Shown here: positions 31,485 through 63,735 of the stretch, one piece after another
Numbering within the stretch: position 1 is the stretch's first letter
Layout: each line of letters opens with the position of its first letter
NCBI GenBank assembly: GCA_905160935.1
Contig: CAJHZI010000876.1
Location: forward strand, 68,501 to 132,500
DNA: 64,000 nt
Reading direction: 5' to 3'
From: Enchytraeus crypticus
Lineage: Eukaryota; Annelida; Clitellata; Enchytraeida; Enchytraeidae
Translations under genes and position numbers: made by a program
Notes under the pieces: model-generated
Database searches by the model: none
Told to the model about the DNA's origin: nothing
What the model saw: the letters and a program-made list of their open reading frames with translations, nothing else

Positions 31485-34400
31485 ATGGGCAGATGCATAT
31501 CATATTTGAGGCAGAGAAAGAGGCTGGTATTGTTTATAGTTACACTTTACCTAGTAGGATTCTATGCTGTATATACTCACTACTGGAATCCAGTGTCACG
31601 AATGCACGTTAGTGTCAACGTACAATCCGGGTCGTCATGGAACATGGGCCTGTGGAGTCGGGAGACGTCAGGGATCGATGAAGATGGTACGTTTTATCTT
31701 TGGACTGGATTCTTGGTTTTACACCTTTTTAGACCTTTTTACTCACCATTTTTGATTTGTCTCGATAGTGCTCCATGTTGTCATGGATGAGACTACTAGC
31801 ACTGTAATTGTTGTTATGTTATATTGAAAACAGCTAAGACTGATGTTAACATTCATTTCGTACGTCGAGAGGAAATCCGTAACGGGCGACAGCTGTATTT
31901 GAGCTGAGTGTACGCGCTGATCTATAAAGTCTGAAAATTAATCGAGTCTACCAATGGTTTTGATTATGGCTTCGGCCATGTAGTACAAGACCCAAATGTC
32001 TATTTAAGGTGTTTTATTCACATTGTTTCATAATAAACTTCTTTGTGTTTCTTATTTTTCTAACTTATTTTGTAGAAATGTTATGGGTAAGTGTTGTGAT
32101 TCATGGACAGTATGGCGTAGTGAAATGGTTAAATGAGTGCCTGGTGAAGGTAATAAATATTGCGTAGAATTTGTTCAAATGGCATTTGTTACCTGGTAAC
32201 AGAACAAAATGAGTCTTCAATAGAGATTTGTTGTAAGATACATAAAACTGATGTGTGAATTGTAAATTATATATTTTAAACCCCGTGTTCCCGCGATGTG
32301 CTCGGGTGTGGTTGGACCACTGCAGAATAGGGCAACCGCAAGCAATCTGTCACGTAGACGTAAAAGGCGATTAAGGCAGGAGCTCAGGATGGCTAGAGGG
32401 GACCCACCTAACCATGAAATATTATCCCCCAGGATTAAATGGTAATTAATCCATCTAACTGAGGAAGGCAATGGGAAACAACCTCAGAAGCCATTCCTTT
32501 CCCAAGCTATAGGCTACATCGTGCTAATACTTGCAACTCATTCTTGCAATTAAATTTTAATTTTAATTTGAATTTAATCATTCTTGCAGGTCTAGACACA
32601 GATCCTGCTGGATATTGTCATGGATCATGCTAACACTTTAACTCATTCTTGCATTTAAATTTTAATTTAAATTTAAAATGAATTGAATTTAAATTAGAAT
32701 CTAAATTTGAATTGAATTTAAATTTGAATCTAAATTTAAATTTAATCATTCTTGCAGGTGTAGACACAGATCCTGCTGGATATTGTCATGGACCATGCTA
32801 ACACTTTAACTCTATCATTCTTGCAGGTGTAGACACAGACATCCACCTTGAACTGGTTTCATCCTGCTGGATATTGTCATGGATCATGTTTTTAACTCAT
32901 TAACACATTAACTCATTAACACTTTAACTCATTCTTGCATTTAAATTTGAATTTAATCATTCTTGCAGGTGTAGACACGGACATCCACCTGGAAGATGAA
33001 TTCTACGGCCACACCGGTGAGGTAGCCGGCGACGTCCACCACGCGGAGACTAAGCCGGACGACCCGCACCGGTTTGATCCGGATCCTAAGAGCGTAGCCA
33101 TCGGCCTCGGCATCACCTCGAAGGGAATCAGTGGAGATGGCGAGAGTAACATCGCGGGGAAGTTTCAACTCTTCTACACGTTCATGCCGACCTTCTGCAA
33201 GACGGCGTCGCAGGGTTACAAGTATTCCTTCTATCTGGCGTATGACCACACCGACCAGCTCTTCTCTAAGAAATCGTTTCTCGACGCTTTCCGCAAAGCT
33301 TTCTACGAGACGACCAAGAGGTAAGCTCTTATGTGTATTTTTTATATTAAGCGATCATCCAGCTCTTCTCTAAGAAATCGTTTCTCGACTCATTCCGCAA
33401 AGCTTTCTATGAGACGACCAAGAAGTCAGCGCTTATGTCTATTTTTTATATTAAATAATTAAAACGGGTCTGCGTCCACAGGCCAACAGTTAATTTTGTT
33501 AGCAGTGCTCACAAGGGGGCAAATCAGCAACTAATTCATTGATTGCTTGAGCTAATCATTGACTGATTCTTTATAGACTATTCTCGAGCGAAGTTACCAC
33601 CTCACTGCACCTGGTGCAATGCTCGCACGCTGGTAAACCAACAATTGTTTCATTTGTTACAGGTCTGATTGATTGATTGACTTATAGATTGATTCATTGA
33701 TTTGTTAAATGACTGATTGATTGATTCATTGATTAAATAACTGATTGATTGATTAAATAACTGATTCATTGATGAATTGATTCACTGATTAAATAACCAA
33801 TTCATCCATTGATTCATTTATTGATTAAATTCCTGATTGATTGATTCAACACAGCACTGGCAACCTCACCCCCTCACTACACCTGGTGCAATGCTCGCGC
33901 ACTAGTAAACCATCAATTGATTCATTTGTTAAATGACTTATTGATTGATTGATTGATTCAACACAGCCTATGCACTAGCAACCTCACTACACTTGGTGCA
34001 ATGCTCGCATGCTGGTAATCCAGCTTTTGATTCATTTGTTAAATGACTGATTGATTGATTGATGCATTGATTAAATGACTTATTCATTGATTGATTGATT
34101 CAACACAGCCAATGCTCTAGCAACGTTACCACCTCATTACACCAGGTACAGTGCTTGGTAAACCAGCAATTGATTCATTTATAAAGGCTTGATTGATTGA
34201 TTGATGCACTGATTAAGTAACTGATTCATTGATTGATTAATTCACTGATTAAATGACTGATTGATTGATTGATTGATTCACTTCAGCCTATGCAGTAGCA
34301 ACATCACCACCTCACTACACCTCGTCCAATGCTCTCACGCTGGTAAACCAGCCTGGGCTCAGAACGACGCCATGTTAGAAGCCTACCTCGATAACGTCGC

Positions 34401-37400
34401 TTACTTCTACCGAGTCAACGATGACACTCAGATCCTAACCAGCGGTTGGGTCGAAGCCTTCATCTCGACCCTAGCCGGCTACGACCCGCCTAACATCGGC
34501 GTCGTCGGTCCGAACCACTCCGGCGGAAACACGGCGATTCTAACGTATGATTTCGTTTCGCAGCATCATCTGCGTGCGTTCGGGTTCTACTACCCACGGT
34601 TGTTCAGCGATTGGTGGGGCGATGATTGGGTGACCTTAGTGTATCAGCCCGGGAGGTCGACGAAGCTGCATCACATGAAGTTGGCTCATACGCTGGGGGC
34701 GGGACAGAGGTATGGCGTGAGCTGGGAGGTGAGAGATAAGCTACAGGGGCAGGTGGCCAGGGATAAGGTTTCTCTGCAGAGGTGTGGCTTGATAGCATTC
34801 ATTAATTATTGTCTCTGACTGTCTCTCTGTATCTCTCTCTATCTTTCTATCTATATCTTTCTCTCTCTCTCTCACTCTCTTGCTGGGCAGGTGACCAGGG
34901 GTAAGGTTTCTCTGCAGAGGTGTGGCTTCTTGATGGTATTCGTTAATTATTGTCTCTGACTGTCTCTCTGTATCTCTCTCTATCTTTCTATCTATATCTT
35001 TCTCTCTCTCACTCTCTTGCTGGGCAGATGACCAGGGGTAAGGTTTCTCTGCAGAGGTGTGGCTTCTTGATGGTATTCGTTAATTATTGTCTCTGACTGT
35101 CTCTCTGTATCTCTCTCTATCTTTCTATCTATATCTTTCTCTCTCTCACTCTCTTGCTGGGCAGATGACCAGGGGTAAGGTTTCTCTGCAGAGGTGTGGC
35201 TTCTTGATGGTATTCGTTAATTATTGTCTCTGACTGTCTCTCTGTATCTCTCTCTATCTTTCTATCTATATCTTTCTCTCTCTCACTCTCTTGCTGGGCA
35301 GATGACCAGGGGTAAGGTTTCTCTGCAGAGGTGTGGCTTCTTGATGGTATTCGTTAATTATTGTCTCTGACTGTCTCTCTGTATCTCTCTCTATCTTTCT
35401 ATCTATATCTTTCTCTCTCTCTCACTCTCTTGCTGGGCAGATGACCAGGGGTAAGGTTTCTCTGCAGAGGTGTGGCTTCTTGATGGTATTCGTTAATTAT
35501 TGTCTCTGACTGTCTCTCTGTATCTCTCTCTATCATTCTATCTATATCTTTCTCTCTCTCTCACTCTCTTGCTGGGCAGATGACCAGGGGTAAGGTTTCT
35601 CTGCAGAGGTGTGGCTTCTTGATGGTATTCGTTAATTATTGTCTCTGACTGTCTCTCTGAATCTCTCTCTATCTTTCTATCTATATCTTTCTCTCTCTCT
35701 CACTCTCTTGCTGGGCAGGTGACCAGGGGTAAGGTTTCTCTGCAGAGGTGTGGCTTCTTGATGGTATTCGTTAATTATTGTCTCTGACTGTCTCTCTGTA
35801 TCTCTCTCTATCATTCTATCTATATCTTTCTCTCTCTCTCACTCTCTTGCTGGCAGTGACCAGGGGTAAGGTTTTCCTGCCAGAGGTTGTGGCTTCTTGG
35901 TATTCGTTAATTATTGTCTCTGACTGTCTCTCTGTATCTCTCTCTATCATTCTATCTATATCTTTCTCTCTCTCTCACTCTCTTGCTGGGCAGATGACCA
36001 GGGGTAAGGTTTCTCTCAGAGTGTGGCTTCTTGATGGTATTCGTTAATTATTGTCTCTGACTGTCTCTCTGTATCTCTCTCTATCTTTCTATCTATATCT
36101 TTCTCTCTCTCTCACTCTCTTGCTGGGCAGGTGACCAGGGGTAAGGTTTCTCTGCAGAGGTGTGGCTTCTTGATGGTATTCGTTAATTATTGTCTCTGAC
36201 TGTCTCTCTGTATCTCTCTCTATCATTCTATCTATATCTTTCTCTCTCTCTCACTCTCTTGCTGGGCAGATGACCAGGGGTAAGGTTTCTCTGCAGAGTT
36301 GTGGCTTCTTGATGGTATTCGTTAATTATTGTCTCTGACTGTCTCTCTGTATCTCTCTCTATCTTTCTATCTATATCTTTCTCTCTCTGTCTCTCTATCT
36401 ATCAGCTAAGTTTTAGATAAAATTAAATGCTAAATTCTGCTATGTAGAAGTCCAATTAATTATTAGCATAGCTGCTGTTAAATATCAGAAGATTTAAGTG
36501 AAATTCACAAAAAAGACTCTGACGGTCATTTTAACGTTACTAACACATATAAGAAGTTTGAATTCTCATGAAACTCCATTAATTATAAACTAATTTATAA
36601 TAAATGTAAGCTAATAATAAATTGAAACTAGTTTATAACTAAAGCTAAAAGCTAAGGTTAACGTCAGTTTCCTCACTCGAAAGCGATGTCAGTGACGGGC
36701 GAGCCCAGGATGTGAACCCGCTCATACTGATCCGTGGTCGAGTATCTTACCGACTTCGCCACTGGCTCCAGCCTAGAAGAACGGAAGAAGAGAAGTGTGG
36801 AGGCGTTATACACCATGGCACTGCACCTAAGTATTAGTTTATAAATTAGATTCTCTCTCTCAGTGAGAGAGAGAATCTAATTTATAAACTAATACTTATT
36901 TCTATTAAATGTAAACTCATTTCTAATAAATTTAAACTAATTTATGAATAATTTAATTTATAATTTAATAAATGTAAAGAAATTTAAACTAATATGAAAT
37001 ATATTTAGAATAAAGTCTATTTTTTTATTTACTTTCAGATACGTTGCCTATCAAAAGTCACTTCTCGCCGAACCCTCAAATTACACGACCAACGGCAAGA
37101 AGGTCATCGCTATTTCTTTGTTCGGCAGAGACTCGAGACATGCGTGGGGTGCCATTCGTCAGGCGCAGACCATCGCTTGGTATTTCCCAGGCTGGACTTT
37201 CCGTGTCTACATACCCGGTGACTCCCGGGGTCTTCCGCTAGCATTGCCGAGACAAAAACCAGCAAAAATCGATGATAGGTCTGTGACGAGTCAGTCTGTT
37301 TTGACCGGTCTTAAGGAGTTGTTATTTGGTGGTGAAAGAGATGACGCGGTTGACGATGATCTACCTTCGGCTGGCCTTAATACTACGTCTAGTCTTTCAT

Positions 37401-39097
37401 CTGGAAACTCCGGTGGAAATAGAACAACGGAGAGTGGAGGAACAATCGGCGGTTTCGCCGGGGCAGGAAATTCCACTGGAGTCAAGTCCGCTCAGGAAGA
37501 CGGGTTAAGCGCAGAATTGCTCCATGCTTTGATCGTTCCCGCTCGTATACGACATAAGCTGCGTCAGCTTGGCGCCCAGATAGTTCCTGTACCGCTACAA
37601 AGCCGAACACCCGCTCGACTACTGCAATACACCGTCGTCGACGACCCGAACGTCGAAACATTCCTCGTTCGTAGAGCCGATACGAGATTTAGCGACCGAG
37701 AAGCGTCCGCTGTTTCTGATTGGTTGAAGAAGATGGAAGGAGGCGGAGATAACGCGCCATTGGTCCATTGCATGAGGGATCACAGGAACCACTCAACCTA
37801 TCGCGTAGTAGAAGGACTCTGGGGCGCAAATGCAGCGCACGTTCGTAAAATACTTCGGGGTAACAGTATGGCATCGACGCTTGCGACTTTTTTCGCCGGA
37901 CGATCACCCAGTCAGCAATCGCTGACATTAGCGGGGCCGGAGACAAAGACTTTTCTCGACACGATTCTCTGGCCTGCTATTGGTGGAAAGGTTCTCTGCC
38001 ACGAAGGTTACTGCGATGCTACGAAGCGAATTCCAGGGTACGAAAATTTTCCCCAGCAGCGTGTAGGAGACGAGTACGTCGGTAGAAGATTTGACGCCCA
38101 TCAAGAACCGGAGTCGGTAAAAAATTCACAGAGTTATTTAAGCTTAGGCACTCGACCGGAATGTGATGGTAGCGTATTAACGGATGCAGAACGTTCAGCT
38201 GCCGAAAAGTTCATTGATTCGGTTGCAGCAGAATGGGAGAAGATTAAAATTACTTCCTTTCCGCCCTTTGTAGGTGCTGCAGCTGTTCCATCAAATTCTG
38301 CAGCTGTTCCAACTAGTGCAGCAGCTGTTCCACCAAGTGCAGCAGCTGTTCCACCAAGTACCACAGCTGTTCCTCCAAGTCCTGCAGCTATTCCACCAAA
38401 TGCCACAGCTGTTCCACCGAATGCTGCAGCTGTTCCACCTAACGCTGCATCTGTTCCACCGAATGCGGCAGCTGTTCCTCCAAGTGATGCAGCTGTTTCA
38501 ACAAATGCCGCAGCTGTTCCTCAAAATCCTGCGGATGTTCCACCAAATGCTGCAGCTGTTCCACCAAATGCCGCAGCTGTTCCACCAAATGCCGCAGCTG
38601 TTCCTCCAAGTGCTGCAGCTGTTTCAACAAATGCCGCAGCTGTTCCTCAAAATCCTATGGATGTTCCACCGAATGCTGCAGCTGTTCCACCAAATGCCGC
38701 AGCTGTTCCACCGAATGCTGCAGCTGTTCCACCAAATGCCGCAGCTGTTCCACCAAATGCTGCAGCTGTTCCTCCAAGTGCTGCAGCTGTTTCAACAAAT
38801 GCCGCAGCTGTTCCTCAAAATCCTATGGATGTTCGACCGAATGCTGCAGCTGTTCCACCAAATGCCGCAGCTGTTCCACCAAATGCTGCAGCTGTTCCAT
38901 CGAATGCTGCAGCTGTTCCACCAAATGCCGCAGCTGTTCCTCCAAGTGCTGCAGCTGTTCCACCGAATTCCGCAGCTGTGCCGCCAAATGCGGCAGCTGT
39001 TTCATCTAATATTATCCCCTCTGTAGCAGCTGGAGCTGTTCTTTCAAACACAACGCCTGTGCTCACAGCTAATGCTACAGCTGCTGCAGCTACGTAG
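31485..39097 (+). CDS. Type II membrane glycosyltransferase-like protein with C-terminal heptad tail, 1035 residues
   Basis: Exons 31485-31686, 32969-33320, 34287-34781 and 37039-39097 (stop TAG); phases 1, 2, 2 match, total 3108 nt. An in-frame TAG at 31479 precedes the ATG. Residues about 13-30 (RLVLFIVTLYLVGFYAVY) form a signal-anchor, implying a Golgi/ER lumenal body. Exons 2-3 hold one module: KFQLFYTFMPTFCKTA, YKYSFYLAYDHTDQLFS, then YFYRVNDDTQ (about residue 229), IGVVGPNH and WWGDDWV, typical of a GT-A-like fold with an acidic DD pair. Exon 4 begins a second module (VIAISLFGRDSRHAWGAIRQ, YFPGWTFRVY, DDPNVETFLVRRADTRFSDR, HCMRDHRNHS, WPAIGGKVLCHEGYC, DEYVGR). Residues about 761-1005 are roughly 35 heptads of the AAAVPPN type. 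I recognise the two modules as recurring together in unnamed invertebrate and protist proteins; substrate and activity are unknown. The tail may act as a Pro/Ala-rich stalk. Confidence 0.72.
31690..31820 (+). mobile_element. Family I LINE 3' end directly after exon 1 donor of the GT-like gene
   Basis: TTTGGACTGGATTCTTGG, TTGTCTCGATAGTGCTCC and TAGCACTGTAATTGTTG. It starts within a few bases of the splice donor at 31687. Confidence 0.65.
32295..32525 (+). mobile_element. Family H repeat in intron 1 of the GT-like gene
   Basis: GGTTGGACCACTGCAGAATA, GTAGACGTAAAAGGCGATTA, GAGGAAGGCAATGGGAAAC and CCCAAGCTATAGGCTACAT. It extends the family further 5' than other copies. Confidence 0.62.
32580..32990 (+). 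repeat. Reiterated acceptor of exon 2 (GT-like gene)
   Basis: CATTCTTGCAGGTGTAGACA or a close variant ends its AG at 32588, 32757, 32826 and 32968; only the last leads into the full exon. The third copy carries about 25 nt of exon. Between copies lies GATCCTGCTGGATATTGTCA text and ATTTAAATT runs. Confidence 0.85.
33249..33465 (+). repeat. Duplicated exon 2 donor region (GT-like gene)
   Basis: CAGCTCTTCTCTAAGAAATC to GAGACGACCAAGAGGTAAGC is repeated at 33360-33450, where the donor is changed from GTAAGC to GTCAGC. About 95 bp per copy. Confidence 0.88.
33560..34350 (+). repeat. Reiterated acceptor of exon 3 (GT-like gene)
   Basis: Four imperfect copies (33569-33660, 33838-33935, 33950-34049, 34090-34190) of the true acceptor block 34270-34350: TTGATTCA..CAGCCTATGC, CACCTCACTACACC, CAATGCTC and CTGGTAAACCAGC. 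Spacers are TGAT-type microsatellite. Confidence 0.85.
34740..36400 (+). repeat. 12-copy minisatellite (about 138 bp unit) made from the exon 3 donor region
   Basis: Units start at about 34812, 34952, 35090, 35226, 35364, 35502, 35641, 35780, 35916, 36053, 36192 and 36331 (GTCTCTGACTGTCTCTCTG). Each contains GTAAGGTTTCTCTGCAGAGG and GTGTGGCTTC, the exon 3 end and its GT donor, plus CT-rich intron. The first unit overlaps the true donor at 34782. Confidence 0.9.
36640..36773 (-). mobile_element. SINE family A
   Basis: Reverse copy, TTAACGTCAGTTTCCTCACT to GCCACTGGCTCCAGCC. Lies in intron 3 of the GT-like gene. Confidence 0.85.
36775..36900 (+). mobile_element. RTE-like LINE end fused to a palindrome
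   Basis: GAAGTGTGGAGGCGTTATAC, CACCATGG and CACTGCACCTAAG are the RTE-like end (+). It merges into a perfect 71-bp palindrome at 36828-36898. A SINE-A copy in reverse orientation abuts on the left. Confidence 0.65.
36828..36898. repeat. Perfect 71-bp palindrome
   Basis: 35-bp arms (TAAGTATTAGTTTATAAATT, then AGATTCTCTCTCTCA) with a single G at the centre (36863). In the last intron of the GT-like gene, about 140 bp from the exon 4 acceptor. Confidence 0.92.
38263..39010 (+). repeat. 21-bp coding repeat, about 35 heptads
   Basis: Unit encodes AAAVPPN. A higher-order block with AAAVSTN, AAAVPQN, P(A/M)DV appears three times, so groups of heptads have been duplicated together. Because 21 is a multiple of three and the unit lacks stops in most frames, five reading frames stay open here; only the frame joined to exon 4 is protein. 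Confidence 0.92.
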
Positions 39098-46420: not shown

Positions 46421-49209
46421 CGACAGATTGCTGCTTCAGTCCGAGCAGCCTAAGTCTCGACGCAATCTTTCCAACGCTCAGATCTTCACCAGATGGCGCA
46501 TGCAGCAGTCCGGCCTCTCTCAGAGACGCAACGGTCGGCTCAAGAAGCGGCTTAGCCGCCGGTAGAATCAGCCGAACGACGTTCTCCGCGTTCTCCTCCG
46601 ACAAGCCATAAGCCAGTCGAGCGGCGGCCTCCACGAACACCCGACACGCTCTCTCTGTCAGCTCAGGAGTTAGCAGCATGAGAACTCCGAGAGCAAGGTC
46701 CTCCGAGACGGCGAGAAGAAGTTTCGGCAGCGAGTCACTCGACTGTCTGCCACGTCTTATCAAGAGAAGCCTCGCATGCAGCTCCTCGTGGTCAGTGGAA
46801 GATAAGTCCAAGCATAGGTGGTGAGTCCAGCAGGAGAGCAGGTGGAGGAAGAAAGGTCTACCACAAACTTGGAGCACATCCCACGGACTCGACTCAGTGT
46901 CGAGACGACGTAGATGCGGCGGTAGAGAGGAAAGGATATCGGACGGAAAAGAAGTGGAGGAAAGGATATCGGACGTAAAGGAAGTGGTTTTCGTGTCCGA
47001 GGAGGATGACTTATGGAGGTGACCTTCAGCAATGGTGCCCTGGGTGGATGGAGGCTTCACTGCAACACCCGCTAACTGTCCGCCATCTCCAGTGGCGAGT
47101 GAAGCATCTTCTCCGTCAGTAAGAGATAAGAATTCTCCCAAATTCTTCGCAGTTTCTCCATATTTGTTTCCTCTTGATTTACCAACACTATCTCCAGCAT
47201 CTCTAAAGTTTCCTTCATATTTGTTCCCTCCTGATTTACCAACACTATCTCCAGCTTTCGTACCGCTTTCTCCAGATCCTGCAGCACTATTTTCCACAGA
47301 CACAACACTCTCAGACTGAGGAACGGTTATCCAATCTTCTGGCGGAAGCGCCTCGAACAACGAACACCCAAAATCTTCTCTTGCCAACCTCCGAACAAGC
47401 AGCATATAACTGCAGGCTATCAGTCCAAAATACCGATACTCGACGCTCGACGTCACAAACTCCATGACCGGCCTCCAGTCACCAACCAGCAAACCTTCGA
47501 GGACGAACTTCTGAGCATGCGAGAGAGAGATCTCGACAAGATTGGACGACAGAGCCAACATGGCTGCGCTCTTCATCGAGTCTCTATCGGCACGTCTTGC
47601 CAGACAGTTAGCCGCTTCGGCAGAGTCGCCCACCGCAACGAAACATTTAGCCGCCAGCTCGTAGTTCCCGTCCCGCAGGAGAGAGTGACCCCACGCCGAG
47701 GTCAGGTCCTTGATGAGCGGGTCAGCGGGTGAGAGGCGGAGCCTGGCCAGACTGACAGCGTCTCGATGGAGGGTGTGGTCTCGTAGCAGCTGTACCGCGG
47801 CATGGATTCTGTTGATGGCGACGAGGTAGGTGGCTGCTTTGTGGTAGCAGCCTTCAGCTGTAAGCTGCTTAGAATAGCTAGAGATAAACAACAAATACTA
47901 ATAATGACAATAATAAAGGTTTAACGTTCATTTCCTCATCCAGAGATGATGTCAGGGACGTCCCCAACAGCACACATCAGTACAGATCAGTTCACCCAGA
48001 CCAATCTGCAAAAGAAATGTGCTGAGAAGAAGTAAGGTCCTAAATGAAAGGCAGTCCAGTGATCAAAAACTGGTTAAATAACTGGTTAAGTGAGGTAGAT
48101 GGCTGATTTGTGGTAGCAGCCCTCGGCTGTCGGCTGCTTAGAGTAGCTAGAGATAAAAAACAAATAGTTAAATATCTGAGTACATTAAGTAGGTAAGTAG
48201 TTAATACGAAGATACTCAACTGCGGATCAGTATGTGTGGGGTTCAAATCCTAAGCAATGGGAAACCACCTCAGAAGCCATACTTTTCCCAAGCTTTAGGC
48301 TACATAAGCTATGGATAAGGCATAGTCTTTGTGAATGGATTAACTTGTTGATTTAAGGAATGCTCTTGTGGAGCGAGAAAACATACTTTTTTTTCATATA
48401 GTTACACACTATATGAAATAAATAAAAAAAACCAAAGTTTTCACTATCTCTATCTTTGTCTTTCTTTAGACTTTTTGTTAATAGTTCTTTTCTACTACCA
48501 AAGGCCGCTTTTGCTAGTGCAATCCTACTGCATATTTCTGTCTCGCACTGGGAAATGTGAGACAGAAATATGCAGTAGGATTGCACAAGCAAAAGCGACC
48601 TTTGGTAGTAGAAAAGAACTTTTAACAAAAAGTCCAGAGAAAGACACAAAGATAAAGATAGTGAAAACTTTGGTTTGGACCACGCTATTATATGGATGTG
48701 AAACATGGACCTTAAGAAAGGAAGATATTAGGAAACTGGAGGCATTGGAAATGTGGATTTGGAGAAGAATGGAGAGGATTCGCTGGACTCAAAAGGTTAC
48801 AAATGAGGAAGTCCTAGAGAGAGTTGGCACAGATAGACAGTTGATAAATGTATTAAGAAATAGGAAGAAGAGATGGATAGGACACATACTAAGGGGGGAA
48901 GGTCTATTAAAAGAGGTCATAGAAGGTAGAATGGAAGGAAAAAGAGGCAGGGCAGGCCGAGATTAGGTATGTTACATGATTTAAAGACCCACATATGTGG
49001 AAATGAAGAGGAAGGCGCAAGACAGAGAAGAGTGGAGGCGTTATGTACCATGGACCTGCCAGAAGACAGTGCACTAAGAGAGAGATAGTTACACACATGA
49101 CATACCGCATGTGCTTACAATGTTTCCTTTCTTAAGTTTCTGTGACTTTGAGTATGAATATGTACCTTGAACCTGCCACTTGGCAGTGCACTGAAGAATA
49201 TATATCATA

Positions 49210-49305
<96 letters not shown>

Positions 49306-52300
49306 AGATATCGTGGGGCAGACCTCTCGCAGGTCATTTAATATAAAATATATATAAGATGTATATATATAATATATATATATATATAATAAAAGATAAG
49401 ATATTAAAAGATATCTATAAGATATATATATAAGATATATAGATTTTTATATCTATAAGATATATATATTTGTTATTATGAGATATATATTATAAAAGAT
49501 AAGATATATATAATATATATATATTAAACAAGATATCGAGGGGCAGACCTCTCGCAACCCAGCTCCCAAGATATATATATATGTATATATATATATCCAT
49601 TTCCTCCTTCCTCTGCATCATTATTAGTAAATCGTTCCCTTTTGATGGCGCATCAATTGCAGCCGGCACGGATTTAAGAATAACCTTCCATCATCCTGGG
49701 ATTTTTATAATAATACGAAGATAAAATATAGTATATAGTAGCGCAATATAATGTATAGTATAGTATAGTATACTTTTCCCATGCTATAGGCTACATAAGG
49801 TATGAATGAGGCATAGCCTTTGTGAAGAGATTAACTTGTTGATCTAAGGAGTGCTCTTATGGAGCGAGAAAACACACTTTGAATATGAATATGTACCTTG
49901 AACCTGCCACTTGGCAGTGCACAGAAGAAGTATAGTATATAGTAGCACAATATAAGATATAGTAGCGCAATATAAGATATAGTAGCGCAGACCTCTCACA
50001 AGCTAGCTCCCATGCCTCCACCGATACTCCGGCGGCGAGAGCCACGCTGAAATCGTCCAGCCGCTTCTCTTCCATCGCTTCCTCCACCGCCTCCGCCATG
50101 CCTCCCCTGAACGACTGCAGCATGACGAGTGCCTCGAAGCTCCGCCTCTCTCTATGCCCCGCCTCCTCCTCCCTACACTGACCCAGCATCAACCGGCGAT
50201 CAGAAAAACAGCCCAGGTGCTTTTCCAGTGCCTTCATCGGTTCCTTCATAGGACGTCCCAAGGATGTTGTCTCTCCAAATCCGCCCGGCTTTGTTCCACC
50301 GTTCAACTTTGTCTCTTGGCTCGTCGTTGTATTATTGATAGATTTAGCAGTGAGACCTTTACAAGCTTCTTCTTCACTCGATTTCTGCGGGTTTGTCGCT
50401 AGGACAGGCAACTCGTACTTTGGTTCCTTCTTGAAAGATTTGGCAAGTCTCTGGCTTATCTCACTCTCCGACGAAGACGATACGCAGCCATATTTAAACT
50501 TTGCGAGGTCAACACAATCCTGCTGAGTCAGCTGCTTGCCACGATTGTCGGCTGAGCTGGCTTTAGGAAACAGCGATTTTCTTCCGGCTCTCTTCTTCCG
50601 ATAAGCCGCAATGCTTCCCTCCGACGACTTCACAACCTTTCTTTCGCTCGACCCATCTGCCGCTGAAATGCTGTCTGAATCGCTGCCCGAGTCTCGTTCG
50701 TCCCTTCCGGAAATCACCTTATCCTCGTGATTGTTCGTCGCGGCCGAGGAACCATTGACCACGGCCGCTGTGTTGCGAGCCCGCAGCGACTCTCGCTTCT
50801 CTTCCAGAAGAGCCAGAAGCTCAACTCTCTCGTCTTCTTTTAACTCCACTCTCGCCAAGCTCACGTCACAAGCAGAATCTACCCCACTCTCCGCCTCACC
50901 GACCTTCCCCGCCGCCTCTTTCTGGTGTGACTTTCCTTTTGGTCGAACCGTCTGCCCACGACGCTTTCCCTCGGGTGGTTTGACGTCGACTTGACGCGAG
51001 ATCCTCCATGTCATCATGGAGTAGTCGTCGCCACCGCTGTAGATGATGTCGGGGTCTGAGGTGTTCCAAGCAACGCTCAACAGTCTGCCGTTGTGACCCC
51101 GAAAGTTGGTGACGTAATGTTCGCCGATGGTTCGATGCGGTACCTTGCCCGCTGAAGACTTTGTAAATTCCTCGGCAGTTAGTTTCGTTCTATCGTCTAG
51201 AGTATTTTTTGCAGTGATATTAGACGGAATCTTTTCGTTGGAAATATTTCCACTGTTCAACGACTGTCCACTGGGAGCCGACCGTGTGTCATCGTGGAAT
51301 GTTCCATTTGATTCAGCGACATCATCACGGAGTTTTCCATTTGATTCCGCGACAATCAGAGTGTCCCAAGAGTCCTGAGAGGTCTTACCATTCCCACCCG
51401 CGGACACAGCTGAATTATCATCCACAACAGCGGAGGATTCTTTAGCGCTCGCGGATTTATTCGAGACGACAGCCGTATCGCAGAGACCCCTACTGCCCGT
51501 CCTCTTTATATCCCACACCTGAACCGTCCAGTCGTAGGAGGCCGAGGCAAGCAGCCCATCCTCATGGCTACTCCAACTCAGCGCAGTGATCTTGTTTGTG
51601 TGGCCGTCTAGACGACGGAAACTTTCCACCACTGTAGGAACCGGCGTCCGAGGAAGCGATCCGCCAGAAAAGCCGGGCAGAACACCCATCTTGTCATCGA
51701 GAAACTTTTCGGTAGCCGGGTCTTTGGTAACTGTCTCCTCAACAACTGTTTCAGATGTTCCACTTTCTTCTATGACAATTGCCGGTTTTTTAATGCAGTC
51801 TTTTAAGTTCGAAGGATTTCGCGAAGACGCAAGCACTTGCTCCAGGTTGAATATATTTACCGTGGACTCGTTCGAGCCCGTAGCTAGAAAATACTGGTAG
51901 GGGGAGGGTTCAGTGGAAGCCGCGGTGAACTTTGGATGCCAGCGAATGCAGTTGATAAGCTTACGATGAACCCGTATCACACAAACCTGAGCGAGGGAAG
52001 GTCGTACCGCAAAAATCTCTATTTTACCGTCTTCAAAACCGACGGCAAAGTGAGACAAGTCCGACTTCCAGGACATTTCCGTTTTCATCGCACAATAAGT
52101 CTGTTTGGCTTCGCCGGTTGATTCGCCGTCAGCATCTGTGGCCCGGCTACTGGCTTTCTGCAGTAACGGTGCGATGTCTCTAGCCGGAAGTTGTCCAAAG
52201 TTTTCCATCGAATGTTCCAAAATCACGCCGTCTCCAACGCTGTACAAACTCGGAACAGATTCCGCAAAAATATCGTCAGAGCCGTCAGAATTCCCGTGAA

Positions 52301-54583
52301 GCGGTTCGCCCCAGGTTACCACGTAGACTGTTCTCTTGTGATAGGTGCACGAGACGATGGCCGATTTGGAAGAGAGTACGTCCAGTATCCCGACTCTTCC
52401 GTCTTCCGTGCCATATCCGAGTAGACCTTCTCTGGTGGGATGCCATGCGAGAGCGGTCACCTTTGATCTGATACCCTGCCAGTATGTCTGAACACTATAG
52501 GGATCAACGGTACTGCAGAGTCTAATCATATTATCACCCCCCCCCACCGCACATCTGCCCGGGTCCAACGGCGAAGGCGCGATGGCGTAGACGAATCCCC
52601 CGAAGCTGGGAATCGAGACAACGGCAGACGCCATAGCCGCTTCCCACACGATAATCTGCCTGTCCATCGACACGGAGACCAGTAGAGAACTGGAGTGAGA
52701 GCGGGGGATTGACGCGATGTTGAAGATCATTCTGTTGTGAGACAGAGCGTTCTTACCCTGCGAGAAGAACTGGAACTTCTGCTTCGCCTGAGTGTCTGAG
52801 AGATTCCAGCGAATCATTTCTCCATTACAGCCGCTCGAAATCAGCTCCGTCCTACCCGCAGAATACAGCCACGTCAGCGCAATCCAACCCTTCTGTCTAT
52901 AGCCACCGCTTTCCTCTCTGTCCCGCCCGCGATTCTGCCCGGGCAGGCGAAGCGTCTGGACGCACACGCTCTTGCCTGTATTCCAAACCCGAATCGTTTT
53001 ATCTCGACAGCTAGAAGCGATCAGATCGCTCGAAGAACATCCGCCGAATTCTTCTCCCACAGAGTCCACGTCAACGACTGGAAACCACACGAGAGAGTGT
53101 ACCTCTTCGTCGTGACCTCTCAGGCGAGCGACAACCGGGTTACTCCTGTGCGATACATCGAGAATCATGATCGCGCCAGTTTTGTATCCGACAGCAAGGC
53201 GAGTTTTTCGATGCGGGGAAAATTCGAGGGAGACGACGTGGGTGTGCGGGTGCTCGGGGTGCCAGGTCCACCCGTCACGCGAGGCTACATCGTAGATTAC
53301 GCGGCCACCGCGATCGTCACCGCTAGCAATGAGGTTGAGATCAGCGGGAGACCAGTGGACGGTGGTGGGTTTAGAGCGGTGTAGAGAATGCTCTAGTACT
53401 AGTTCTGCCTTGTCTATATCCCAGACCTTTATCTAAACATAATAAGTATAATAATATACGAATGTAGAATGTATAGGTCTATATCCCAGACCTTTACCTA
53501 AACATTATAAATATAATAGTATATGAATAAAAATTGAATATAGAAAAAAAACAAAGAACAATCACTAATACGTCAGGCATTCAGTTACATTGATCAATAA
53601 AAAGAATTCAAATAATTCAGATCATCAACCCATCCTTACAAGCAGAACAGTAGGTGATGAGTGTTAGTAGAAAAAGCAAGCTATATAAGTATTCTAATAA
53701 CTTTAATTCAGAATCTTATCAATTCAGGAACTAATTAATACCTTTATGATATAAATTGTTAACTTTAGTTGCGAGGTAGTAAACAATGTAAAGGAATTAA
53801 TATTTCAAACAAATTCTAATTAAATACTATTACTATGTTATTTAGCATACATTTTAGCATATTTTTTTAATGTCTATGTATGTAGCGTACCTTTCCATCT
53901 TCTCCAGCAGAACAAACTTGCAGGTAAGCAGTAGTAGCTGGAACAGCTGCTGCCTTTGATAAAGCAGCTGCAGCAGAAGACGAAGGACCAGTAGCTGAGA
54001 CTGCAGGTGTAATTACAGCTAGTGCATCAACAGCTTTAACCCAAGCAGCAGCAGCAGAAGCCTCGGCATATCCAGTTATATCTGAGGATATTTCAAGAGC
54101 TATGGAGCTACTAACAGCTGCTTCAGCAGCTGTATTGATGCTGTTAGCAGCTGTAGAATTCAACTTTGAATTACCAGCTGCCTCAGTAGAACCAGAAACT
54201 ACTGTATTAGAGTTGTCAACACTATCCAAGCCTCTACAACAATCACTGATATTAGTGGCAACAGTGTCAAAGGCATTAGTCGAATCAGCATTGCAGGTGT
54301 CGGCCTGCCTTGGAGTTGCAGCATCAGCCGATGTGCTGGCAGCTGCAGCAGATATGTCACACGTTGCACCGTTAATAGCTGTCACAGTAGGCTTACGCAA
54401 AGAAACTCCCACCACTCGTTCGCTGTGAGCCGGTACTTGTCGAATGAATCTCGGCCGCTTAGGCTGACTGATATCGAATATATACAGCGAGTTCTTGGCT
54501 CCAAATATAAATATGCCATCACTGTTAGCATCAATTACTCGACTACAGTACCAGTTAGGCGATGCGGGATAAATGTATTCCAT
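46395..54583 (-). CDS. GEMIN5: Gemin5, SMN-complex snRNA-binding WD-repeat protein (1871 residues)
   Basis: Exons 54583-53891, 53432-49993 and 47877-46395 (stop TGA); phases 0 and 2 agree and total 5616 nt. ATG 54583 starts MEYIYPASPNWYCSR, matching the human SPNWYC start; an in-frame TAA lies upstream. Exons 1-2 hold about 14 WD repeats (for example LRGHDEEVHSLVWFP, SMDRQIIVWE, FGGFVYAI, KVTALAWHP, LDGHTNKITALSW, FRGHNGRLLSVAW), the double propeller that reads the Sm site and cap of snRNAs. Aromatic residues known to contact RNA are kept (W11, Y12, FVY). Exon 3 carries the TPR-like dimerisation region (YHKAATYLVAINRIHAAVQL, RLSPADPLIKDLTSAWG, YELAAKCFV). A Ser/Ala/Thr-rich insert at about residues 62-218 splits blade 1. 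The protein ends without an obvious match to the far C-terminal RNA-binding part of vertebrate Gemin5. Exon number is very low for this family. Confidence 0.93.
47912..48075 (-). mobile_element. Family G repeat (3' part, about 165 bp)
   Basis: On the minus strand: GGACCTTACTTCTTCTCAGC, GATTGGTCTGGGTGAACTG, GGGGACGTCCCTGACATC and GAGGAAATGAACGTTAAACC. Matches 60520-60670 (+). Confidence 0.7.
48090..48168 (-). repeat. Intronic copy of the Gemin5 exon 3 acceptor edge
   Basis: GAGGTAGATGGCTGATTTGT and GGCTGCTTAGAGTAGCTAGA match 47823-47890 (GAGGTAGGTGGCTGCTTTGT, GCTGCTTAGAATAGCTAGA). About 70 bp, with the acceptor AG kept. Confidence 0.88.
48199..48253 (+). mobile_element. SINE family A fragment fused to family H
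   Basis: GATACTCAACTGCGGATCAG to GGTTCAAATCCTAAG, running directly into GCAATGGGAAACCACCTCAG of family H. Confidence 0.7.
48431..49090 (+). mobile_element. RTE-like LINE 3' part with 5' fold-back
   Basis: 48556-49060 encodes the C-terminal end of an RTE-type ORF2: TLLYGCETWTLRKEDIRK, MWIWRRMERIRWTQKV, LRNRKKRWIGHILRGEGLLK, then EEWRRYVPWTCQ, and the end GCAGTGCACTAAGAGAGAG. Its 5' end is an inverted repeat (48431-48544 against 48559-48674, about 115 bp, loop 14 nt). It lies in Gemin5 intron 2. Confidence 0.82.
49200..49520 (+). repeat. CA, TA and AGATAT microsatellites
   Basis: (CA)n 49210-49264, (TA)n to 49300, then ATAAGATATA-type units. In Gemin5 intron 2. Confidence 0.9.
49310..50015 (-). 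repeat. Intronic echoes of the Gemin5 exon 2 donor edge
   Basis: GGGGCAGACCTCTCGCAGG (49316) and GGGGCAGACCTCTCGCAAC with CCAGCTCCCAAG (49534) resemble the true edge GCGCAGACCTCTCACAAG, CTAGCTCCCATG (49986). Set in TA microsatellite. Confidence 0.78.
49755..49930 (+). mobile_element. Family H repeat in Gemin5 exon 2/intron 2 border
   Basis: CCCATGCTATAGGCTACATA, GGAGTGCTCTTATGGAGCGA, TGTACCTTGAACCTGCCACT and TGGCAGTGCAC. Lies just downstream (minus sense) of the exon 2 donor at 49992; another end of the family at 49100-49205 and 48250-48385. Confidence 0.62.
53410..53530 (-). repeat. Duplicated Gemin5 exon 2 acceptor
   Basis: GTCTATATCCCAGACCTTTA followed by (T/C)CTAAACAT occurs at 53411-53440 (true acceptor) and 53476-53505 (intronic copy), both followed by AATATAATA-type sequence. 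Confidence 0.88.
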
Positions 54584-55475: not shown

Positions 55476-55555
55476 GAATGTCTAACATTTTGTTTTATTA
55501 AAGCTCACATACTGATCGAGAATTAGCCCGTCGACCGACATTGATCGATTAATAG

Positions 55556-56750: not shown

Positions 56751-57007
56751 TAAAATTCCCATATCGAATTAATAGGCATTGAATGCATGTATTTGTTGTA
56801 AACAGCGCCGCAGTAAATAAAATTACACATTGGGACCTAGTGTAAAACTCTTTCAATCGGTAACTATGCAACGATATAATTAAACTATATTTTTAATTAA
56901 GTCAAGTTTATATTCACTAAATATAACTATTTCAATCATTAACTGTAATAGGGACCCAGTGTATAACTACTTCAACCATTAACTATAATCAGATATAATA
57001 GCTAGCA

Positions 57008-57650: not shown

Positions 57651-57751
57651 GTAACTATAATCACATAAGGGGGCCTAGTGCAGAACTTTTCACGCAGTTG
57701 CTATATTGCCCATGTACCGACACAACTTTTGGATGCCGTAACAGACTGTTG

Positions 57752-57865
57752 CTATCTCTCTTAGTGCACTGCCTACGGGCAGGTCCATGGTACATAACGC
57801 CTCCACTCTTCTCTGTCCTCCGCCCTCCTCCTCACTTCCACAAACGAGTGGGAACTGTTGTTATA
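57752..57865 (-). mobile_element. RTE-like LINE 3' fragment
   Basis: TCTCTCTTAGTGCACTGCC, ACGGGCAGGTCCATGGTA and ACGCCTCCACTCTTCTCTG; reverse complement of the RTE-like end. Confidence 0.75.
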
Positions 57866-57869
57866 CAAA

Positions 57870-58859: not shown

Positions 58860-61527
58860 ATGAGTGATAATAAAGGAGATGAAGCGGCCACGGCTGCCGA
58901 ACCTGTTTCAATGGAAGTGGCGGGAGAAAGTAGTTCTCTCGACAATTTCTCCATGGATAGAATGGACTGCGACGCCGGATCATATTCACCGTCTTCCGCC
59001 GGAACTGAGTCGATCGATGGCACCGCGTCCTCCAGCGCAGGTGAAGGTCGCCGTGCCTCAAGGTCAAGGTCGGGGGGTTCTACAGTTCGAGGGCCTGGCC
59101 GGCCGAAGAAGGAGAAAGAGACGAAGGAGCTGGAAGCAAAGAAGCCAGAGAGGTTAGAATGCTGTTTGCTAGCGCGTAGTGGAATTATACTGGATTAATA
59201 TTGGCTGGAGCAAGTAGCGAAGTCTGTAAGATGCTTGACCATGGATCAGTATGTGCAGAGGTCAAATCCTGGGCTCGCCCGTCACTGATGTCGCCTTCGA
59301 GTGAGGAAACTGACGTTAACTTTAGCTTTTTTAGCTTTTTATAATAGAGTGCATTAAATTGTTATAGCTGTGTGTACATCTGCTTGTGATTGGCTAATTA
59401 TTGCGAGGGGTTGATGCATTTTTGTTTTTTATGCAACGGATATGCCTTTTTTATTATATGATCAGGGCGAGAAATTGTAAATAAAGCTGTAATAGGTTAG
59501 AGATGTGATTTTATAGTCTTTGGTCAGGTTGAAGATCATCAAATTCTCCCAGATCTACGAGTTAGGACATCTTCATCATCATCACCATCTTCCCTTGAAT
59601 CCCAGTTCCACTATTGTCGAGATACGAATAGACAGTCTAAAATTCTCTCTGTCCTACGTCATATCATCAGCCAATCCCCTATTTGAGACTTTTCCCTTCG
59701 TTAAAATTTTTGTAGCAATTTCTGGAGCTTAGCTGCTCACCAATCAAATGCCTTCCCTGACATTGGTGTGGATCTTAGTGCTTTAGTCGCCTTCTATGAC
59801 ACGTGCAGTCACCGGTTGGTCAATTCTTCGAACAACCCGTACATGACACGGGGAATCCATGAGTTACGACAATTTTGATTTTTTTCAATTTCACTATATT
59901 TGCAGCAAAACTAGATTGTCTAGACGCAACACAGGAGGTGGCAACTCTGCGCCCCCGTCGAGCAGGGCCGACAGTCCCCTCGTCCATGATGACACCAGCA
60001 CTTCCACGGCGGGGTTTGACTCGACGTCGGGGTCGCTGGTGGACATTAAGGTGGAGCCTGGGATCTTGGAGGTGGAGCCACCTGGTGGACACAGCGAGGG
60101 TATGACTACGAGATCATCGGCAGCTCAAGTAAAATCCGAATCTGTCGCCTCCACGCAGGGTGGAATGGACGCATCGTCTGATAATACTTGTTAGTATTAC
60201 TCAAACTTGTTACTCTATCTGCAGAATTATACTTGTTAGTCAAGTCTATGTGCAGAATTATACTTGTTAGTCAGCTCTATCTGCAGAATTATACTTGATA
60301 ATCGGAATTTACTTAATATTTACTTTATATAATTTATTATTATATTTATTTATTTATTATTATATAATTTTAGTTTCTGTTTGATGCTACATATGTTGAT
60401 TCTCACTTTTGTCTGCTGATTTATCTGTTTTCACAATTATTTGTCAGTGTTTGATGAATTTCTAAATAAACATATGTACTACTACTACATCCCTGACATC
60501 ATCCCTTGATTTTTTGATCACCCGACTGGCTCTCGTTTAGGACCTTACTTCTCCTCAGCACATTTCTTTTAGGAGATTGGTCTGGGTGAATTGATCTTTA
60601 GTGATGTGGGCTGTTGGGGACGTCCCTGATATTATCACTGGATGAGAAAACGGACGTTAAACTTTTTTTACTAATAATATTATTATGATACTGGTTAGTC
60701 ATCTCTATCTCAGAATTCTACTTGAAAATTTACTTTAAATACCAAATCATGTGCCTCCTTTAATTTCTGCTAGTCAAACTATCCAGCCTACTGTCACAGA
60801 ATTTAAGCTCTGTTGTAACCACACTGCTCTAGTGTCCGAGTCTATGGTCTTCTTCAGTGCACTGCCTAGTGGCAGGTTCAAGGTACATAGTCATACTCAA
60901 AGTCTGTTTTCTCTCTCCATAAAAGCACTCCTTAGATTGATTGCGTGATTGATTGATTTCTTGATTGACTGATTGCTTGCTTGATTGATTGATAGATGAT
61001 TGCTTGATTGCTTGATTGATTGATTGCATGATTGATTGCAGGTGGCAGCAGTTCCAGTGGAAAGAAGGCAGCTGAAGGAAATTCTAGGTATCCACTGATT
61101 ATCAGTGAATTAATTGATTTTAAAATTTACGCTCTAATTTTAATTTATCACCTAATTATGCTATTGTATTATTGATTGAGTTATCTACTGGTTAAGAGAC
61201 TAAACAGTGGCGACGTCGGTAAGATACTCGACTGCAGATCAGTATGTGCGGGGTTCAAATCCTGAGCTTAGCCAGTCTTTTGCTGTTACTTGTTAATAAA
61301 TAATAGTCTCTGGTATGTGAAGGTAAATAAACAGGCATCTTTGTGCAACCTAATGGGAACCATCCCGTAAGCCATGCATTTCTTCCTAGCTCTAGGTTAC
61401 GTTAAGGTGCGGGTAAGGGAAAGTCTTTTGTTTTGAAGGGATTAACTGATTGATTGATGGAGTGCTCATTATGGAATGTGAAGTCAGAATGTGAAGTGTG
61501 TACCTTGGATCTGCAACTTGGTAGAAT

Positions 61528-61561
<34 letters not shown>

Positions 61562-63320
61562 TAAATCATCATTGCTGAAATATTGGCTTGAGCAGTCACT
61601 TGGATAAATTCCTAACATAGGATCATTACGTCAATCATCATCCTCTTCATCATCATCATCATCATCATCATCGCCATTCATCCCTAATATTATTTAGAGA
61701 AGCTGACTTTGTTGAACTAGCTTTTTAAGCTTGTATACGTTAATCTGAAGATTAAATGTTCTTTGATTTATTTATTGTAATATTTATTATAATGACTGGG
61801 CAAGGCAATCAAGAAACACTGAGCCACATGAAGTATGCTCTAACATTAATTTCTGTAAGAAGCTCAGCCTTTTTGATGGCTTCACCTACTGCACCCACTG
61901 CATGTGAAATCATATTTTGAGTAGGACTATATGTTTTTTAACTGCCACATGGCCGAGCTGGAGCCAGTGGCGAAGTCGGCAAGACACTCGACCGCGGATC
62001 AGTATTTGGGGGTTCAAATCCTGGGCACGCCCGTCACTGACATCGCTTTCGAGTGAGGAAACTGACGTTAACCTTACCTTTACCAGAGATTACAGAGCGA
62101 GTGAGAATATATGTTCATTTATTTCAGGTTATCGATGTCGTTAATGGAACGCGACGCTTACTCTTATCATACCACCAGGTATGTTCTTGTTTCTTACTCT
62201 TATCATACCACCAGGTATGTTCTTGTTTCTTACTCTTGTCATACCACCAGATATGTTCTTGTTTCTTACTCGTATCATACCACCAGATATGTTCTTGTTT
62301 CTTACTCATATCATACCACCAGATATGTTCTTGTTTCTTACTCATATCATACCACCAGGTATGCTCTTGTTTCTTACTCCTATCATAATACCAGGTATGC
62401 TCTTGTTTCTTATGAAAAATACTAAATGTTACTAACACAAATATTAAATATTAACTTATGCTTAACAGGTTGTGACGGTATAAAAAATAATGTATGGTAA
62501 TAAAATAATTGTGCTGCTATTTTGGTATTATTGGCTGTCAATGTTTTGCGGTACAACGGGATGTATCATTTAATTTCTGAAGATATCATTTATTATCTGA
62601 TTGTTTCCTCTCTCTCTTAGTGCACTGCCCACTGGCAGGTCCATGGTATTTAACGTCTTCCGTTTTCTCTTCATGTCCACCTTCAAGTGGACCTATAAAT
62701 CATCTAACATGATATGCCATTATTCTTAGGAGATTCTGCTTATGAAGATATGGGCCCCCTATGCCTTCCTCAGCTTCGACTAACTTTATTTACTGGGCAG
62801 GGGCATCATTCCCTGAGAAAACAATCCTGTCTACCCCGAAGCTATGTTTTATGATTTTACATTTTGACAATTAATAGCGACGTTTTGCATTAAATTCAGT
62901 GATAGGATGGACAGGGTCCCCTATGATATCGAAACAGACATTAAATTTAGAAATGTTAAATTTATAAAATTAAATTTCGGTATTATAAGCTGCGACTGTT
63001 TTGCGTTCCAGCGGTAGGATGGATCGGGTCTGTTCATTCTGTTCTCGGGGAGAAAAGAGTCTACTGGGTCAGGGTGATCTTACGCGCTATGAACCCACTC
63101 CAGGGTTTAACCCATTCCGTAAACTGGCCCAGAGCGGGGGGGTGGGCGCCTCGGGGGCCTCGGCACGGGCCGCTAGGGCTCAGAGGGGCAGCGGGTCAGC
63201 TGAAGGGGGTTTGGAGGAGGTAACAGGGGCTGGGGTGAGGCGGAGTTCAGCAAGTGTTGTGCTACCCAGGCCTGGCAAAGTAACGAGGAATTCATCGGCC
63301 AAAGCTCAACAGCTTGAGTC
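58860..63320 (+). CDS. KMT2C/D: KMT2C/KMT2D (MLL3/MLL4) histone H3K4 methyltransferase, N-terminal part (continues beyond window)
   Basis: Exons 58860-59152, 59906-60189, 61042-61087, 62128-62178 and 63012-63320, all GT-AG, with phases 2, 1, 2, 2, 2 that join without a stop; together about 327 codons. ATG 58860 has an in-frame TAA at 58848. Exon 1 is acidic and Ser-rich and ends in an AT-hook (RGPGRPKKEKE). Exon 2 is low-complexity. Exon 5 opens RVCSFCSRGEKSLLGQGDLT and continues RYEPTPGFNPF, the start of the first extended PHD module of KMT2C/D, whose human form reads CAFCYCGEKSSLGQGDL. The remaining PHD fingers, FYRN/FYRC and SET domain would lie to the right. The enzyme monomethylates H3K4 at enhancers within the COMPASS-like complex. 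Introns contain SINEs, and donors of exons 2 and 4 are tandemly reiterated (see separate entries). Confidence 0.88.
59203..59340 (+). mobile_element. SINE family A
   Basis: GCTGGAGCAAGTAGCGAAGTC to GAGTGAGGAAACTGACGTTA with a TTTAGCTTTT tail. Lies in KMT2 intron 1, 50 bp past the exon 1 donor. Confidence 0.85.
60181..60300 (+). repeat. Reiterated donor of KMT2 exon 2
   Basis: AATACTT|GTTAGT at 60190 recurs as TATACTTGTTAGTCA at 60235 and 60266 and decayed at about 60295, with CTATCTGCAGAATTA between; another relative at 60690-60725. Confidence 0.82.
60485..60680 (+). mobile_element. Family G repeat
   Basis: GGACCTTACTTCTCCTCAGC, GGGGACGTCCCTGATATT and GATGAGAAAACGGACGTTAA. A partial 3' end of the same family (CCTGACATCATCCC) sits at its left edge, so two insertions may overlap. 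In KMT2 intron 2. Confidence 0.7.
61197..61278 (+). mobile_element. SINE family A, 5' half
   Basis: AGTGGCGACGTCGGTAAGAT, GATCAGTATGTGCGG and GGTTCAAATCCTGAGC; stops before the 3' domain. A family H unit follows. Confidence 0.75.
61340..61525 (+). mobile_element. Family H repeat in KMT2 intron 3
   Basis: CCTAATGGGAACCATCCCGT, ATGGAGTGCTCATTATGGAA and TGGATCTGCAACTTGG. A reverse copy of its end lies at 60848-60945. Confidence 0.6.
61957..62090 (+). mobile_element. tRNA-derived SINE, family A (full-length reference copy)
   Basis: Head GCTGGAGCCAG, an exact Pol III A box TGGCGAAGTCGG and B box GGTTCAAATCC, then GGATCAGTATTTGGG, and a 3' domain GTCACTGACATCGC plus GAGTGAGGAAACTGACGTTA. Lies in KMT2 intron 3. 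Confidence 0.85.
62150..62410 (+). repeat. 7-copy, 36-bp tandem repeat carrying the KMT2 exon 4 donor
   Basis: Unit TTACTCTTATCATACCACCA plus G|GTATGTTCTTGTTTC. Donor positions 62179 (true), 62215, 62251, 62287, 62323, 62359, 62395. Copies 3-5 read AGATATGT, losing the GT; copies 1-2 have GTATGT and 6-7 GTATGC. Confidence 0.92.
62515..62925 (+). repeat. Partial copies of the KMT2 exon 5 acceptor block
   Basis: True block 62975-63030: GACTGTTTTGCGTTCCAG then CGGTAGGATGGATCGGGTC. Relatives at 62517-62560 (TCAATGTTTTGCGGTACAAC) and 62878-62925 (GACGTTTTGCATTAAATTCA, then GATAGGATGGACAGGGTCC). Confidence 0.72.
62605..62760 (-). mobile_element. RTE-like LINE 3' fragment in KMT2 intron 4
   Basis: CTCTCTCTTAGTGCACTGCC then CACTGGCAGGTCCATGGTAT and a decayed continuation ending near 62760. 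Confidence 0.75.
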
Positions 63321-63344
63321 GTAAGTGTTCTCCGTTGTTCCTCT

Positions 63345-63735
63345 TGCCTATGGCTATTTGATTCGTACAGAGTCGTTGTGATTCGTTGCTCTGTGATGAG
63401 TTATTGTGATTCATTGCTCTGTGATGAGTCGTTGTGATTCATTGCTCTGTGATCAATCAATCAATCTATCAATCAATAAATAAGAATTTAACGTCCGGTT
63501 CCTTGCCATAAGGCAATGTGATGAGTCATTATTGCTCTGTGCTCTGTGATGGGTCGTTGTGATTCTTTGCTCTGTGATGAGTCGTTGTGGCTCATTGCTT
63601 TGTGATGAGTCGTTGTTACTCTTTGCTCTGTGATGAGTCATTGTGACTCTTTGCTCTGTGATGAGTCATTGTAGCTCATTGCTCTGTGATGAGTCGTTGT
63701 GATTCGTTACTCTGTGATGAGTCATTGTGGCTCAT
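63345..63735 (+). repeat. 29-bp minisatellite after KMT2 exon 5
   Basis: GATGAGTCGTTGTGATTCAT plus TGCTCTGT units, about 10, interrupted by the CR1 tail at 63452-63520. GAGTCGT(T/A) echoes the exon 5 donor TTGAGTCGTAAGTG, so it may be another donor-derived array. Confidence 0.82.
63452..63520 (-). mobile_element. CR1/L2-like LINE 3' tail fragment inside a minisatellite
   Basis: ATCAATC repeats, AATTTAACGTCCGGTTCC and GCCATAAGGCAAT in reverse orientation. It interrupts the roughly 29-bp repeat that runs 63350-63735; TGTGAT flanks both sides as a possible target duplication. Confidence 0.8.

Follow-up and report, generated by a model that had tools for sequence, protein, structure and literature searches.

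Exon edges copied into neighbouring introns of a 64-kb animal window probably stem from tandem duplication across intron-exon boundaries

To determine how the ends of exons, together with their splice sites, come to recur inside the adjoining introns, we analysed a 64-kb stretch of DNA (the window, at its full length), which reads as animal nuclear DNA. Three gene families carrying such copies were placed by homology. The joined exons of RBCK1-like gene A match PDB 7yui (E 4.6e-22), a record named 'RanBP-type and C3HC4-type zinc finger-containing protein 1', for which RBCK1 and HOIL-1 are short names; genes A and B form a tandem pair of RBCK1/HOIL-1-like genes (212-3890 and 14404-17877, ∼14 kb apart) whose exon-bearing blocks are ∼82-89% identical and whose alignable intron blocks are ∼74-79% identical. 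For a GT-like gene, annelids account for 11 of the 12 organism-named relatives, and Lingula is the 12th, among the best 120 of 166 matches. Gemin5 matches the Pfam family TPR_GEMI5 and has relatives in Lingula (38%) and Antedon (36%) over 54% of the query. Thus, the claim of the first-pass annotation that five unrelated genes are affected holds for three families by homology, but not for an ORF at 21.5-22.8 kb and a gene named 'KMT2', neither of which gave a match in Pfam or a significant one in PDB. The latter name comes from that annotation, and the gene shows no more than a resemblance to KMT2 motifs. A search of the window with Rfam at gathering thresholds returned nothing beyond one borderline tRNA, at 6046-6118 (-), which at 29.2 bits just passes the cut-off of 29 and is perhaps a tRNA-derived repeat.

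Thirty exon edges were set from homology, reading frame, and splice consensus. Of these, 22 edges in the four homology-supported gene copies (RBCK1-like A and B, GT-like, and Gemin5) comprise a strict set, in which the donor of GT-like exon 1 was picked to suit the frame and that of Gemin5 exon 2 by phase between two GTs, and that of RBCK1-like exon 4 was placed by consensus; a 26-edge 'homology-backed' set, used in part of the tests, still includes four KMT2-like edges with frame support only. Exon phases fit by hand for GT-like exons 2-3 and 3-4 and for Gemin5 exons 1-2. The window was scanned for ungapped direct matches at offsets of 10-1500 (match +1, mismatch -2, score at least 14), which returned 2274 local blocks, whereas three dinucleotide-shuffled versions returned 0, 0, and 1, so local repeats exceed chance. 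A copy within 700 bp that takes in 6 nt or more on both sides of the edge was found at 13 of the 30 edges and at 11 of the 22 strict ones (10/30 and 8/22, respectively, at a score cut-off of 18). At all 13 edges the copies are direct, with best-block offsets of 36-669 bp. The copied segments are contiguous exon and intron DNA reaching at least 5 nt to both sides of the edge; divergence within the matched blocks is 0-18%, and the splice dinucleotides are often retained in the intronic copies.

The GT-like gene, which has relatives in annelids and whose exons 2-4 were placed by tblastn, carries such copies at the following edges.

31485-39094 (+): GT-like gene, with exons at 31485-31686, 32969-33320, 34287-34781, and 37039 to about 39094
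32535-32994 (+): exon 2 acceptor and three upstream copies, with TTCTTGCAG/GT retained in all three
33255-33454 (+): exon 2 donor and a copy 104 bp downstream, 89/96 identical
33558-34352 (+): exon 3 acceptor with the first ∼60 nt of the exon, and two or more upstream copies interspersed with TGAT arrays
34747-36396 (+): array of 12 x 139 bp, holding 35 nt of the exon 3 end, the donor, and 5' intron

The exon 2 donor duplication includes 66 nt of exon and leaves an 8-nt spacer, and its copy reads GTCAGC where the functional donor reads GTAAGC. In the most upstream copy of the exon 3 start (33566-33643), the conserved residues are still readable and tblastn matches the relatives; by eye, the phase of this copy fits, and its differences from the functional exon are partly silent. 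Tandem Repeats Finder (TRF) resolved the exon 3 donor array into 12.0 units of 139 bp with 96% matches, and the donor GT is retained in eight of the nine intronic units found by exact motif. Among the self-comparison matches listed for the forward strand of this window, the 139-bp unit matched only its own array. By eye, the unit has a (TC)n tract and a CAG as well as a GT donor, and 29 nt of it derive from the exon; with this arrangement, the units could serve as tiny cryptic exons. The ORF of the last GT-like exon further contains a 21-bp minisatellite of 34.6 units (38274-39010).

In Gemin5, copies were found at three edges.

47823-48166 (-): exon 3 acceptor (exon starts at 47877) and a copy 269 bp upstream, 67/75 identical
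49288-50012 (-): exon 2 donor (exon ends at 49993) and two intronic copies, at ∼49530-49568 and ∼49300-49333
53412-53528 (-): exon 2 acceptor (exon starts at 53432) and a copy 65 bp upstream, 47/52 identical, with a 13-nt spacer

The exon 3 acceptor copy includes 55 nt of exon and is separated from the edge by a dispersed element. The two exon 2 donor copies (scores 18 and 20, 444 and 669 bp away) both retain AGAG/GTCTGC, and another dispersed element and AT tracts lie between them and the edge.

The RBCK1-like pair carries copies at the same donor in both genes, as well as at the exon 3 acceptors.

2302-2543 (+): gene A exon 2 donor (exon ends at 2314) and an intronic copy at 2506-2543, score 17, offset 204
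3430-3619 (+): gene A exon 3 acceptor (exon starts at 3611) and upstream tandem units, score 15, offset 176
16244-16383 (+): gene B exon 2 donor (exon ends at 16255) and a copy 90 bp downstream, 43/50 identical
17450-17605 (+): gene B exon 3 acceptor (exon starts at 17598) and upstream 68-bp tandem units, score 14, offset 59

In gene A, the donor copy matches the edge at 10/13 exon and 21/25 intron positions, and the acceptor copy is weak (8/9 exon and 13/15 intron letters), with an array common to its paralogue. In gene B, (AG)n lies between the donor edge and its copy, and the insert would be in frame without a stop. The donor copies occupy matching places in the two genes, just before an aligned stretch (2563-2950 in A and 16406-16783 in B), which suggests that the duplication is probably older than the gene duplication; the edge copies shared by the paralogues at matching positions thus appear to be inherited, ordinary DNA.

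Two further loci depend on putative exons.

21678-21840 (-): putative acceptor (exon starts at 21694) with two units of ∼81 bp, 23/23 identical
62157-62412 (+): array of 7 x 36 bp from a putative donor (62178), intronic or coding

The first of these has an identical copy, but its exon has no Pfam or PDB support. In the second, GT is present in four of the seven units (the putative edge included) and AT in three, and the reading frame is open through all of the units, so these repeats may be coding.

Taken together, 12 of the 14 blocks at which exon edges had been reported to recur indeed hold direct exon-edge copies, with the splice site, in the same intron. These are 32580-32990, 33249-33465, 33560-34350, and 34740-36400 in the GT-like gene; 48090-48168, 49310-50015, and 53410-53530 in Gemin5; 2300-2560, 3415-3612, and 16240-16400 in the RBCK1-like genes; and, subject to the putative exons, 21690-21812 and 62150-62410. 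The remaining two are not confirmed as exon-edge copies: 60181-60300 is a 31-bp array with, by eye, ∼13 nt in common with a guessed donor and no block in the scan, and at 62515-62925, where ∼19/23 letters match by eye, no block scoring at least 14 extends 5 nt in both directions from the acceptor at 63012.

We then considered the orientation and the limits of the copies. Within 600 bp, low-complexity-filtered blocks number 503 direct versus 28 inverted (1874 versus 995 unfiltered), and no inverted copy with a score of at least 14 was found within 600 bp at any of the 30 edges. Exon-exon junction copies were likewise absent for all 13 introns probed, with the best junction match having at least 7 mismatches in 30, and the best blocks run 5-66 nt into the exon instead of stopping at the splice site. 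Copies that are direct, contiguous, and often adjacent, with none inverted or spliced, argue for duplication at the DNA level rather than through RNA intermediates. The spacer measures 8 and 13 nt in two of the two-copy cases and 40-194 nt in four other cases; the two short spacers are compatible with end-joining, and a break-repair step could have produced them.

The most probable account is therefore ordinary tandem duplication across intron-exon boundaries, with the copies later amplified or separated, and we hold it with considerable, if incomplete, confidence. A genomic segment of tens to a few hundred bases would be directly duplicated and would, by chance, cross an exon-intron boundary, so that each event would yield two boundary copies (when across a donor, in the order exon, donor, intron, exon end, donor, intron). 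Since the donor that is used defines the exon, splicing and frame selection would retain the exon-proximal copy, and the other boundary copy would be left in the intron, which it lengthens. Some copies would then be amplified into arrays by slippage or unequal exchange, as may have happened with the 139-bp array of 12 units, and others would be separated by the insertion of a microsatellite or a dispersed element. The splice site used in vivo is here predicted from the sequence. Consistent with this account, use of the far splice site would cause a frame shift or a stop for 11 of the 13 copies tested, which belong to 12 edges (the GT-like exon 2 acceptor being represented by two copies, and the 21694 edge and the 669-bp copy of Gemin5 being excluded). 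As the far choice mostly breaks the frame, the near choice alone would usually survive, giving the duplications a one-way look. The earlier impression that copies always point into the intron can thus be explained without a special process, but for two copies that are readable as exon, namely the RBCK1-like B donor copy and the 36-bp array, the direction is an assumption. Of the two origins that had been proposed, frequent local tandem duplication with purging of exon-facing copies agrees with the direct orientation, the contiguity across boundaries, and this loss of frame.

Whether such duplications occur at exon edges more often than elsewhere was assessed against several backgrounds, all within one window that was picked post hoc because the pattern had been noticed, with four of the edges coming from one gene and two pairs being common to paralogues. 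Counted per event, with a long array counted once, 3.7 of the 16 intronic arrays would be expected to touch an edge of the strict set, but 11 do, a value that 0 of 20,000 simulations reached; a stricter cut-off gave 8/14 versus 3.3 (P 0.004, strict set), and non-microsatellite intronic arrays gave 12/19 versus 4.4 (P 5e-5). A reduced event set, at score 18 and without the four unsupported edges and the paralogue B arrays of the first two introns, still gave 7/12 versus 3.1 (P 0.011). Per base, the outcome is weaker. Random anchors in the own intron (edges whose neighbouring intron is unlisted being assigned a random listed one) predict 6.9 of the 22 strict edges, as compared with 11 found (P 0.025), and at a second cut-off 6.3-6.6, as compared with 8 found (P 0.24-0.29). 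The first-pass annotation had named equal duplication of random intronic anchors as the outcome that would speak against its pattern; this is in part what the per-base comparison gives (6.3-6.9 of 22 expected, P 0.03-0.29), but not the per-event one. Against all intronic positions, there is no per-base excess (9/30 edges versus 30% intronic coverage), and at score 14 the same control gives 13 edges versus 9.0 expected. Since the edge arrays themselves raise this control, we added tests at the level of events, by circular shift, and within the own intron.

A joint circular shift over genic DNA gave P values of 0.001-0.20 for the 30 edges, depending on the cut-off, and 0.01-0.13 for the strict set, and intergenic anchors as the control gave 2e-5 to 0.01 for all 30 edges. 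Repeat coverage peaks at the edge: it is 0.48-0.51 in the first 30 nt of the intron, falls to 0.28-0.35 in intron DNA more than 120 nt away, and is 0.06-0.13 in exons at 30-120 nt from the edge. At score 18, 26 non-microsatellite arrays lie outside the 13 listed introns (in intergenic, element, and exon DNA) and 16 lie inside, so duplications of this kind are also common at a distance from edges. Detection bias through the conserved functional copy was rejected as the cause of the excess: simulated edge events were 0.62-0.84 times as detectable in six settings. When the null was given a 1.5x or 2x advantage, the event test returned P 0.0005-0.12 over 16 runs. The edge excess is hence moderate and test-dependent in size, and it is no more than suggestive. 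As more arrays touch an edge than position-blind placement predicts, a purely position-blind process may be an incomplete explanation.

The excess bears most directly on a reading in which exon-intron boundaries are themselves mutational hotspots for local direct duplication, with introns growing outward from exon ends and spare splice sites accumulating in them. The cause might be a boundary-linked break, for example at transcription R-loops or at the step in composition between exons (53% GC) and introns (35% GC). The per-event excess, the coverage profile peaking at the edge, the excess over intergenic anchors, the GC step, and the involvement of at least three gene families all speak for it, but the own-intron comparison loses significance at its second cut-off, the all-intron comparison lacks an excess, and the statistics stem from a single post-hoc window with partly shared edges. 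On balance, we regard a boundary hotspot, including its R-loop or composition-step form, as rather unlikely. That divergent haplotypes or mis-joined reads entered the assembly as tandem copies is very improbable, since the copies differ by 0-18% in the edge blocks, arrays reach 12 units, copies are common to paralogues A and B, and an artefact would have no reason to prefer exon edges. Template switching or reverse-transcribed splicing intermediates, the second origin that had been proposed, would accommodate non-adjacent copies such as those of the Gemin5 donor and copies that always carry the splice site (though they were sought in that way), but the lack of inverted copies within 600 bp at the 30 edges and of exon-exon junctions for the 13 introns probed, as well as block ends lying inside exons instead of at the splice site, leaves it scarcely credible.

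The window also contains dispersed elements. A short element with the core TTTAACGTCCGKTTYC is present on the forward strand at 1707, 1863, 8369, 22889, 27657, and 63487 and on the reverse strand at 1266, 15551, 26583, 43137, and 60661, and its copies mostly adjoin a microsatellite or a TGAT-like tract. One of them lies just past a LINE-like element at 23.6-26.4 kb that has an RVT_1 match, and from this position the copies may be LINE tails. A second family, with the core GTGCACTGCCNNNNGGCAGG, is present at 15063, 28381, 57767, 60860, and 62623 (+) and at 49188 and 49919 (-). Pattern scans for the dispersed repeats found no loci in viral contigs and three in prokaryote genomes, which were taken as chance.

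If the edge excess holds genome-wide, tandem duplication across boundaries would be a measurable route to longer introns and to spare splice sites usable by alternative splicing and intron gain; otherwise, the window would still illustrate how a common mutation looks one-sided when only one of the two boundaries that it creates can usually be used. In the open-licence literature, we found no report of a duplication excess at exon edges. Gao and Lynch reportedly surveyed multiple genomes in their 2009 study.

The type of duplication is itself known, contrary to the earlier remark that no named process gives this pattern: tandem duplication across an intron-exon boundary (PMC4974935) and tandem repeats at such boundaries (PMC2812944) have already been described. 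What stays surprising here is the density and the moderate, test-dependent edge excess. A close likeness is the potato RdRp gene (Ma, Lan and Niu 2016, PMC4974935), where a tandemly duplicated segment reaches from intron 1 into exon 2 and brings with it the acceptor, the polypyrimidine tract, and a putative branch site. There too, the duplicated segment crosses an intron-exon boundary, but a new intron is reported, whereas here, at the DNA level, both donors and acceptors are affected at many edges. In human genes, internal tandem repeats at exon-intron boundaries are described as altering splicing through novel introns (De Grassi and Ciccarelli 2009, PMC2812944). These resemble the present copies as minisatellite-size arrays on exon-intron boundaries, but they vary between recent paralogues in segmental duplications, whereas several unrelated families are affected here within 64 kb. 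Internal gene duplications are called commonly observed in PMC4974935, citing Gao and Lynch 2009; that work, as cited there and in PMC3443670, concerns duplicated intragenic segments, whereas ours concerns one window. Finally, a review regards tandem genomic duplication as a probably widespread way of gaining introns (PMC3443670), and in the Rogers model an intron is gained by duplicating an AGGT-bearing exon segment (PMC3443670, PMC4974935). As in that model, tandem duplication here yields extra splice sites, but where the model gains an intron, existing introns are lengthened.
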